Below are positions 1,979 to 43,612 of a DNA stretch of 64,000 nucleotides, one piece after another. Source of the stretch: Haloquadratum sp. (GTDB lineage Archaea > Halobacteriota > Halobacteria > Halobacteriales > Haloferacaceae); contig JAQCNF010000108.1 of the NCBI GenBank assembly GCA_028275165.1, positions 1-64,000 on the forward strand. The letters are read 5' to 3'. The first letter of the stretch is position 1; each line of letters starts with the position of its first letter. Position numbers and translations under genes: made by a program. Under the pieces are notes generated by a model that saw only the letters and a program-made list of their open reading frames with translations, had not been told where the DNA came from and did no database searches.

Positions 1979-2036
1979 TGGAGTCCCCTTCCTCAAGGAG
2001 CGAAGCAAAGCGAAGTGAGTGAGTAGACTGGGGAGG
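1979..2036. repeat. Hairpin element 1, likely IS200/IS605-type end remnant
   Basis: A GC-rich hairpin lies in an otherwise gene-free 313-base gap (1899-2211). It contains GGAGTCCCC, then TCAAGGAGCGAAGC, and closes with GACTGGGGAGG; CCCC pairs with GGGG. Closely similar units occur at 6724-6760 and 42621-42684. The layout resembles right ends of haloarchaeal TnpB-type elements. No transposase is nearby. The remainder of the gap holds only the promoter region of the next operon. Confidence 0.45.
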
Positions 2037-6723: not shown

Positions 6724-6760
6724 GTGGAGTCCCTCAACGAGCGAAAGAGGGTGGGGGTAG
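6724..6760. repeat. Hairpin element 2, same family as element 1
   Basis: GTGGAGTCCCTCAACGAGCG followed by a G-rich arm ending GGGGGTAGC. It shares the block GGAGTCCC...TCAA.GAGCGAA with the unit at 1979-2036. It lies in the gap between the universal stress protein and the convergent phosphodiesterase. There is no coding sequence around it. Confidence 0.4.
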
Positions 6761-42101: not shown

Positions 42102-42620
42102 CCGAATCAGCTAATGATTGTTAGCACCGTAATTTCCTGTATTCGAAATCGAACACGTCAACTGGCGCTTCGAGCCTGATGCATAGTGCGAGCGCATACC
42201 CGCGTTCTTAGGCCCGGGAGGAGGTCAAGAGTGCAGGTTCGCACAGCAATACTAGTCAGATTGTCAACGACTGCGAATATATCATGCGTGTTACTCAAGA
42301 TAACACCCCCGCCGAATGGCTCTCGATTTATTGGATATATGATAGTGTTGACAGCCGCCTCTATACTCCTCAGGCGACAGCCACGCTCGTCGTGTGACAG
42401 ATGCGAAATCCCACAGCCTGATATGGTTGGCTTTTGATCTAACCACTCTACTGGGTGTTTTAGCGCGTGGGTTTCATCCAGGGGAGATGAGATAAATAAT
42501 TCAGGTCAGTATTATGATTGATGACTGCAGAGGTGTTCCCTCCAACCACATCTGTGCGACTTACTCGCCTCGCTCATGATCCTGCTTTTTGAACTGGAGG
42601 TCTCATTTTTCACAGTTCAC
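42102..42620. other. Gene-free stretch between convergent genes
   Basis: About 520 bases with no convincing ORF or RNA gene. A GTGC/GCAC hairpin lies near 42233-42246. The segment around 42190-42250 superficially resembles half of a tRNA but lacks a matching acceptor stem. The stretch ends in TTCAC at 42616-42620 immediately before hairpin element 3. It is probably decayed sequence; I cannot identify its source. Confidence 0.4.
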
Positions 42621-42684
42621 AGGCGCTCAGTCCCAGCCCCCGTCCGCAAGGAGCGAGCAACGCGAGCGAGTAGGGCAAGGGGAG
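42621..42684. repeat. Hairpin element 3, bounded by TTCAC and TTCAT
   Basis: A 64-base GC-rich unit beginning AGGCGCTCAGTCCC and ending AGGGCAAGGGGAG, with GCAAGGAGCGAGCAACGCGA in the centre. It shares the AGTCCC...CAAGGAGCGA...GAGTAG...GGGGAG order with elements 1 and 2. TTCAC precedes it and TTCAT follows. The latter TCA is the stop codon of phzF on the minus strand. IS200/IS605-type elements insert next to such short T-rich targets, so this may be a solo end. Confidence 0.45.
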
Positions 42685-42685
42685 T

Positions 42686-43612
42686 TCATATGATCTCATC
42701 ATTATCGTCGCTTGGGACGACAATCGTCCCTTGGAGAGTAGTCACCACTTGCCCACCGACAGCCATAGAATCACCTACTGTTACGGTAAGATGCGATGGT
42801 GTCCCTGCGAAGTGGCTGGCCTCGATAGTCATCGTTCCTGGCAGTGAGTCAACCGCTTCTGCCATCTGAAGATACGCTGCACATCCAACTGCTGCGACTG
42901 GAGCGGCGACTAATTCAGTTCCTTCAGCATCGAACCACCGAGCATGCAGCGTGCTATGAGCCGCGATTGTATCGAAGGTAAATAGACAGCAGCCATCGGT
43001 TTCGTACTGCTGGCAGAGTTTGCTAATTCCTGTCGACTGTATTCCCGGTGTTCGTAATGACTCCAGAAATACGACGGGAATATGTAAAAATGACTTTTCT
43101 GCCTGTGTGACTCCTGGCGATAGAGACCGACCAACCTCAGAAAGAGCCTCCGCTGGGAGCGATAGTTGCGTAGCGACGGCAGCATAGTCAATTTCGGCGA
43201 AAGATGCCTCTGGGGTGTCCATCTGAACCGACAGGCCACTATCGGCATTGCAATTGATTCTCCGTGAGTCTGATTCGGAGCCAGTGTCCGATCCACTTTC
43301 TGTCTCAGAGTATAATACTGCTTGTTCGCCGGGTTTGAGTGCGTATGCTGCGACGGCAAGCGCGGCCGCATCCCCTCGTTCGTTCTCTGTATCGACCCAG
43401 TCCCATCTAATCTGGTCAGGACTGCTTTCGTTCGAAGTGATAAATGCAGTTTCGATGCCTCCGAGTTCTCGCACAATTGTCTGCTGTTGGGCCTCGGTCA
43501 GACACGCTGCCTCAGGCACAACTCCGACTGTGAGACCGCCATATGGCTCCCTGCTAAAGACATCTGTGAGTTGAACTGTAACCGTATCATCTATCGAAGT
43601 AAAGTCGCTCAT
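42686..43612 (-). CDS. PhzF family isomerase/epimerase
   Basis: A 308-residue protein with the duplicated PhzF/DapF fold. The N-terminal half contains QLTDVFSREPYGGLTVGVVP and ELGGIETAFITSNES, with the catalytic Glu in IET. The C-terminal half has ARWFDAEGTELVAAPVAAVG and CAAYLQMAE. Members isomerise small acidic or aromatic compounds; the substrate is unknown in archaea. A Ser/Glu/Asp-rich insertion near residues 105-120 is a halophilic loop. It stands alone, with 20 bases between its start and the stop of scpA. Confidence 0.85.
   Translation of the reverse strand: MSDFTSIDDTVTVQLTDVFSREPYGGLTVGVVPEAACLTEAQQQTIVRELGGIETAFITSNESSPDQIRWDWVDTENERGDAAALAVAAYALKPGEQAVLYSETESGSDTGSESDSRRINCNADSGLSVQMDTPEASFAEIDYAAVATQLSLPAEALSEVGRSLSPGVTQAEKSFLHIPVVFLESLRTPGIQSTGISKLCQQYETDGCCLFTFDTIAAHSTLHARWFDAEGTELVAAPVAAVGCAAYLQMAEAVDSLPGTMTIEASHFAGTPSHLTVTVGDSMAVGGQVVTTLQGTIVVPSDDNDEII

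Follow-up and report, generated by a model that had tools for sequence, protein, structure and literature searches.

Three short units of similar sequence lie in the 64,000 nucleotides analysed here (the window, positions 1-64000 of contig C15 in genome G000), and the question is what these units are and which elements they come from. An earlier note, made from the letters alone, had described them as solo hairpins resembling IS200/IS605-type right ends, and had offered orphan omega-RNA-like scaffolds, mobilisable miniature elements or scars as possible origins. In our reading the three units are very probably transposase-free, ends-only derivatives of tnpB-carrying IS200/IS605 elements, of the kind called palindrome-associated transposable elements (PATEs), which are now decayed. 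The correct label is 'ends': one left end, one decayed fusion and one probable fusion of a left with a right end. The coordinates are given in Table 1.

Table 1. Positions of the three units and of adjoining or separately annotated features in the window (bit scores: covariance model R1).
Feature	Start	End	Strand	Description
Target pentamer relic of unit 1	1963	1967	+	CTCAC; TTCAA in the empty site of the congener G001 (alignment with G001:C1:790.5-791.0k)
Unit 1, apparent left-end-only element of 111 bp	1968	2078	+	59.0 bits; absent from G001
Unit 1, palindrome core	1976	2040		
Unit 1, terminal TTTTAA	2073	2078		
Unit 2, decayed fusion of 51 bp	6715	6765	+	13.0 bits; left-end left arm TTCGAGTGGAGTCCC, right-end right arm GGGTGGGGGTAGCTGAT
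tRNA (Rfam)	33501	33575	-	
Unit 3, probable fused ends-only element	42606	42689	+	49.2 bits; left limit approximate; left-end left arm CAGGCGCTCAG, right-end right arm GGGGAGTTCAT (left part by eye)
PhzF-family gene	42686	43612	-	TGA stop is the TCA at 42686-42688

The G000 assembly comprises 3.1 Mb in 194 contigs and is 72.9% complete, and the GC content of the window is 51-54% in steps of 8 kb. An exact-pattern search of genome contigs with the core returned 16 stretches, whose names are presumably all haloarchaeal (Haloterrigena, Halorussus, Natronoglomus, Halonotius, Natronomonas, Halobacterium, Halovivax, Natribaculum and Haladaptatus). By resemblance, the window genome would be haloarchaeal as well.

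The repeated letters which had led to the grouping of the units are present at 1979-2036 and 42621-42684. In the unit at 6724, GGAGTCCC, TCAA and GAGCGA are found and GAGTAG is absent; the sequence reads GAGCGAAAGAGGGTGGGGGTAG. To search for the units we built R1, a covariance model of 65 positions and 12 pairs, from 26 related sequences. The three window units were kept out of its training, so the detection test is not circular. With the filters off, R1 found unit 1 with E 2.4e-16 and unit 3 with E 2.9e-13 in the 64-kb window and unit 2 as the third-best match with E 0.082, where all E-values are rough because the calibration was short. Below unit 2 there are 13 weaker matches, the best of which, fourth overall, follows close behind with 10.7 bits. 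Units 1 and 3 are real and well beyond chance, and unit 2 is a degraded third. Rfam models at their gathering thresholds have no match at the three units, and their sole match in the window is one tRNA.

That the single units are strong hairpins was not confirmed. Folded alone, the three units are no better than shuffles either as RNA (z -0.12, 0.10 and 0.91) or as DNA (z -0.05, -1.39 and -0.15), and single-sequence folding was rejected as a proof of hairpins. Ends adjacent to tnpB fold somewhat better as DNA (z -2.47 for L040, -1.59 for L007 and -1.06 for L052). The palindrome is instead backed by covariation in the family. Across the 26 sequences there are two-sided changes in 8 of the 12 pairs, and the covariation score is 0.419, compared with 0.142 for the mean of the shuffles (0 of 500; at most 0.117 for slid versions of the structure), all of these scores being inflated by the relatedness of the sequences and by a structure derived from the same sequences.

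R1 has at least 71 matches in G000 at E <= 0.01, counted among the 150 candidates scored out of 1106; this genome also supplied 4 of the 26 sequences used to train the model. A covariance search for further copies, which the earlier note had proposed as a check, has thereby returned both many copies and their link to insertion sequence ends. Nine of the 71 copies are found in a right-end context, with a TnpB zinc ribbon upstream on the same strand at a distance of 133-249 bp (six of them at 162-183 bp). For another nine, in a left-end context, the zinc ribbon lies downstream on the same strand at a distance of 0.5-2 kb; of these nine copies three are ambiguous (C110:12001, C110:11851 and C151:69220). 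Of the remaining copies, six have some other TnpB within 2.5 kb and 47 have none within that distance. As a control, TnpB on the opposite strand falls into the right-end range for one and into the left-end range for two of the same 71 copies.

The TnpB loci were scanned for ends on both strands. Intact elements carry the palindrome twice, upstream of tnpB as the left end and past the zinc ribbon as the right end, which mostly lies 160-185 bp past the zinc ribbon and finishes with TTCAC, TTTAC or TTGAC. One example with the full order is found on contig C117, where a left end at 1442 is followed by a TnpB zinc ribbon at 2628-2825 and a right end at 2987 finishing TTCAC. The tnpB between these two ends is an open reading frame of 383 aa, and Pfam annotates OrfB_IS605 and a TNB domain in this protein and in a 396-aa relative. 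The proposed resemblance to IS200/IS605-type ends is borne out here, as G000 itself has an open tnpB with such an end on either side. On plasmid PL131 of Natronomonas pharaonis, a match of unit 3 precedes an annotated TnpB by about 80 bp, which is the left-end position. Units 1 and 3 belong to this family of ends around tnpB, and the membership of unit 2 is weaker.

Left ends occur in two forms, GGCGCT(A/C)AGCCCCCGTCC... with GGGCGGGGATACAGCGCC and TTCGAGGTGGAGTCCCC... with GGGGAGGAAACC, and right ends read GGAAGCCC(C)ACCC... with GGGTGGGGTAGTTCAC, TTTAC or TTGAC. Judged from these sequences, left and right ends share a common core (CTCAAGGAGCGA...GAGTAG) and differ in their outer arms, and for this reason not every such hairpin should be taken for a right end or a guide RNA.

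G000 has at least 125 TnpB zinc-ribbon matches in its 3.1 Mb (150 of 205 candidates scored; some broken genes are counted twice, once for each piece). Of these matches 105 exceed the family cut-off and many are in short or broken frames, compared to 17 TnpA matches. Three of the TnpA matches, on C104, C108 and C48, are near full length (119-121 of 121 positions) and free of stops.

We typed the arms of the palindromes in two ways. Hand-made rules, written after the sequences had been seen and applied to 70 of the 71 G000 copies, gave 27 left/left, 22 right/right, 11 left/right, no right/left and 10 unclear copies. Because of the way these rules were made, a 4-mer classifier was additionally trained on 26 copies of known context. 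In leave-one-out runs it assigned 23 of 24 left arms (two copies had no anchor) and all 26 right arms correctly. Applied to 56 copies, which are unit 2 and 55 of the 70 outside training, it gave 16 left/left, 16 right/right, 7 left/right and 3 right/left copies, and 14 with at least one unclear arm. By eye, two of the three right/left copies look mis-anchored, and two of the 11 hand-typed fusions sit in a left-end context. Fusions of a left arm with a right arm are common in G000. The asymmetry that is expected from core deletion is clear by the hand rules and is only suggested by the classifier.

Unit 1 is flanked by CTCAC and TTTTAA, where G001 has TTTCAA once. With boundaries set manually on the alignment, G001 runs CCATTTCAAGTGGTC and the window runs CCATCTCAC, then the 111 bp, then TTGATC. 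Most relatives have TTCAA or TTCAG at the target-pentamer position. The flanks may be either a target with a target-like terminal oligonucleotide, as is described in the part of PMC3119063 used here, or a short duplication. The relatives of unit 1 in G009, G045 and G001 (copy A) are followed after 29-74 bp by TnpB frames of 396-398 aa, and a TnpB match comes after the G032 relative too. Both arms of unit 1 are of the left-end type, on which the hand rules and the classifier agree. Unit 1 is thus a left end without a tnpB.

The left arm of unit 2 is the one found in the unit 1 family, and the right arm GTAGCTGAT resembles by eye the right end of that family, GTAGTTGAC. The classifier values are +13.0 for the left arm (left-end type) and -7.8 for the right arm (right-end type). 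G001 has a 51-bp gap at this position, the placement of which is soft. R1 with default filters found nothing at E <= 1 in 14 loci representing 12 distinct places, namely the G001 sites of units 1 and 2, each taken twice, and ten relatives beside the neighbour gene of unit 2. In the congeners G009, G011 and G013 the intergenic region cannot be aligned to that of unit 2 and has no recognisable unit.

By eye, the left part of unit 3 agrees with left ends as far as about 42606, and the last bases of the unit, AGTTCAT, match right ends. The hand rules type it as left/right, and the classifier values of 1.6 and 1.5 assign its arms to neither type; a left-end/right-end fusion is probable from these matches. 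The TTCAC and TTCAT that had been reported around this unit are indeed found at 42616-42620 and 42685-42689, and the left TTCAC is probably not a target site because by eye it aligns inside the left end of relatives (GTTTACAGGCGCT, C166:13429). Likewise, the CAGTCCC variant is present and by eye results from extra bases compared to the family (CAGCCCCCG). DNA matches to unit 3 come from Natronomonas, Natribaculum and relatives, and among the examined matches that reach the final bases, those of G019, G033 and Natribaculum have the same mixed form; tblastn detected no TnpB in these three loci (3.1, 3.1 and 6.1 kb). G001 is 95% identical over 601 bp, with 32 differences, three of them within 42606-42690. 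Among the 60 genomes besides G000, the flanks match only G001, which has unit 3, so no empty site is found. The terminal TTCAT of unit 3 contains the stop codon of a PhzF-family host gene, which is now closed by an end element.

The absence of tnpA and tnpB near the units, which had been noted from the letters, was confirmed. On contig C15 neither PF07282 (150 candidates scored out of 205) nor PF01797 (all 34 candidates scored) has a match, and tblastn with four TnpB proteins revealed none in the window, the best E being 0.09. Without a tnpB near any unit, none is located just 3' of tnpB like an IS200/IS605 right end. Unit 1, being a left end, cannot keep the designation as a right end, which fits units 2 and 3 at best by half: only their right arms are right-end-like, and their left arms look left-end-like.

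This typing also bears on the idea that the units are orphan omega-RNA scaffolds. In that case their transcripts would serve a TnpB acting in trans, and the bases that follow the right end would be the guide. Unit 3 retains a right-end-like terminus that would suit such a role. The cited parts of two papers describe omega RNA with a right-end hairpin expressed in Halobacterium salinarum (PMC12558985) and a strongly expressed PATE in a Halorubrum virus-host system (PMC10544981). Against this, no guide would follow unit 1, as it is a left end, and where a right end has its upstream part, units 1 and 2 (by the classifier) and unit 3 (by eye) have left-end sequence. Some of the stem pairs are broken in the R1 alignments, and a search of G000 with one right end and its upstream segment gave no place on C15 among the 27 of 67 candidates scored. 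A guide-RNA function of the three units appears unlikely from their arms, and we consider the scaffold explanation very improbable.

Two other G000 copies, C121:15510-15696 and C24:14273-14430 (both on the plus strand; L101 and L100), are right-end copies with 93% identity over about 160 bp. They share the stretch upstream of the right end and differ further upstream, and tblastn of the 3-kb loci gave no convincing tnpB (best E 0.09-0.12). They are candidate right-end mini-elements or candidate orphan guide-RNA scaffolds and come nearer to the earlier note's idea than the window units do.

The units could also be miniature elements that are still mobile, inserted recently by TnpA acting in trans, instead of scars. 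The empty site of unit 1 in G001, the near full-length and stop-free TnpA genes of G000 and two G001 copies at different places, A and B, with no difference between them along 108 bp (from TTTCAAC to TTTTAACA), would agree with this. The wear of the units speaks against it: the identity of unit 1 with the G001 copies is only 79% and 4 of its 12 stem pairs are broken, unit 3 has 2 of 12 broken as well as extra bases (both manual counts on the R1 alignment), and unit 2 is shortened. We hold present mobility to be improbable, and the options of scars or of once mobilisable miniature elements are the ones supported.

The right boundary of unit 1 is that of copy B in G001 (C1:1394292-1394385), which has no tnpB of its own downstream. 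The right end of the parent family finishes TTGAC in G009, G032 and G045 and is masked in G001. By sequence, the two left-end-only copies share a right boundary unlike the right end of the parent. Unit 1 and copy B might represent a mobile mini-element consisting of the left end alone, with the internal TTTTAA as a surrogate right end; in the parent, TTTTAA lies just upstream of tnpB and could be a tnpB promoter box. If true, left ends of IS200/IS605 elements could move with no right end and spread without carrying tnpB. This reading is weakened by the location of copy B inside an old tnpB remnant, at a site that is not a clean insertion. In G001 the 94-bp left-end element lies between TTTCAAC-like repeats, and the orthologous site in G000 (C120:18977-19480) is not empty, having about 500 bp between two TTTCAAC. 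Relative to copy B, an N-terminal TnpB remnant in this stretch (tblastn E 6e-10) is on the opposite strand; the corresponding zinc ribbon, at C120:19486-19614, is inside the flank common to both genomes, and in the G001 flank the TnpB trace is faint (tblastn E 0.006). The flanks of copy B match many other places too, and copy B lies in a patch of old mobile DNA. Either part of an old tnpB copy gave way to it, or the DNA between the two repeats was first deleted and copy B inserted afterwards; the latter two-step history is as likely as any. With n = 2 copies a left-end-only mini-element is possible, and that the two are a mobile form of this kind is rather doubtful.

Across genomes, R1 has matches at E <= 0.01 in 52 of 60 genomes (G000 included), with 1 to at least 87 matches per genome (up to 87 candidates scored in each). 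The eight genomes without a match include G014, a nearly complete congener. Such swings in copy number fit a mobile family. They also bear on whether the units are terminators or other regulatory hairpins of the host which merely resemble transposon ends. All three units are located at or between gene ends, and unit 2 lies between convergent genes of the Usp and phosphodiesterase families, as terminators might. Congeners differ in the presence of the units, copies are found at tnpB ends in mostly fixed orientation, and the range from 0 to at least 87 copies among the 60 genomes is that of a mobile family; host hairpins are an extremely improbable explanation.

We return to ends-only derivatives of tnpB elements as the preferred explanation. 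An intact parent would have had a similar imperfect palindrome at both ends. Its middle may have been lost when these two palindromes, being similar, recombined, or through a deletion of another kind; alternatively, a bare end may have transposed. The product would be a gene-free unit of about 50-110 bp. In the past, such a unit could have been mobilised as a single strand by a Y1 TnpA encoded elsewhere and inserted at TTCA-type targets. At present, with stem pairs lost, the units are most likely inert scars. Some observations count against this explanation. Unit 3 is also present in G001 (95%), where an empty site would have demonstrated insertion; for unit 2 the match is weak (E 0.08) and the gap softly placed; the window units fold unremarkably as single copies; and the reciprocal right/left combination, which core deletion does not predict, was counted 0 times versus 11 by hand and 3 versus 7 by the classifier. 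On this explanation, the short 'solo hairpins' seen in haloarchaeal genomes would be what TnpB transposons have left behind. All three units are new copies of a known kind, and ordinary apart from the possible left-end-only class with its two copies.

PATEs were described in Haloquadratum walsbyi (PMC3119063). According to the sections of that paper drawn on here, they have no inverted repeats, possess near-terminal palindromes like IS605-type elements and occur in 177 and 194 copies in two strains. The same sections report deletions of the core between the two palindromes, terminal-only versions of HqIRS46 and ISHwa23 with a length of 52 bp, and six strain-specific insertions of ISHwa23, all of the 52-bp form, which its authors regard as a hint of mobility. 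The window units compare well with this. They are transposase-free, and at 51-111 bp too short for a transposase, with near-terminal IS605-like palindromes that are tied to tnpB ends, strongly in units 1 and 3 and weakly in unit 2. They have about the same length of 50-110 bp, their genome has many decayed tnpB genes, and strain-specific presence is found for units 1 and 2, which are absent from G001, unit 3 being present in both genomes. Haloquadratum as reported has a heavy load of tnpB genes together with their decay, and G000 is alike. The likeness to the HqIRS families is one of kind, taken from the descriptions in that part of PMC3119063. Unlike the PATEs described there, unit 1 is apparently a left end alone, and its TTTTAA is not the right end of the parent. 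HqIRS71, by its description in the same text, is non-coding and similar to an extended IS605-type end segment; it resembles in kind the C24 and C121 copies, which are not among the three window units. A further example is the IS605 element of Halanaerobium hydrogeniformans, for which the passages used of PMC7290912 report one ends-only copy. Like the fusions found here, by its description this copy lacks the middle of the element, and its left-end hairpin directly adjoins a right end; unlike the window units, it is bacterial and keeps 58 nt of tnpB.
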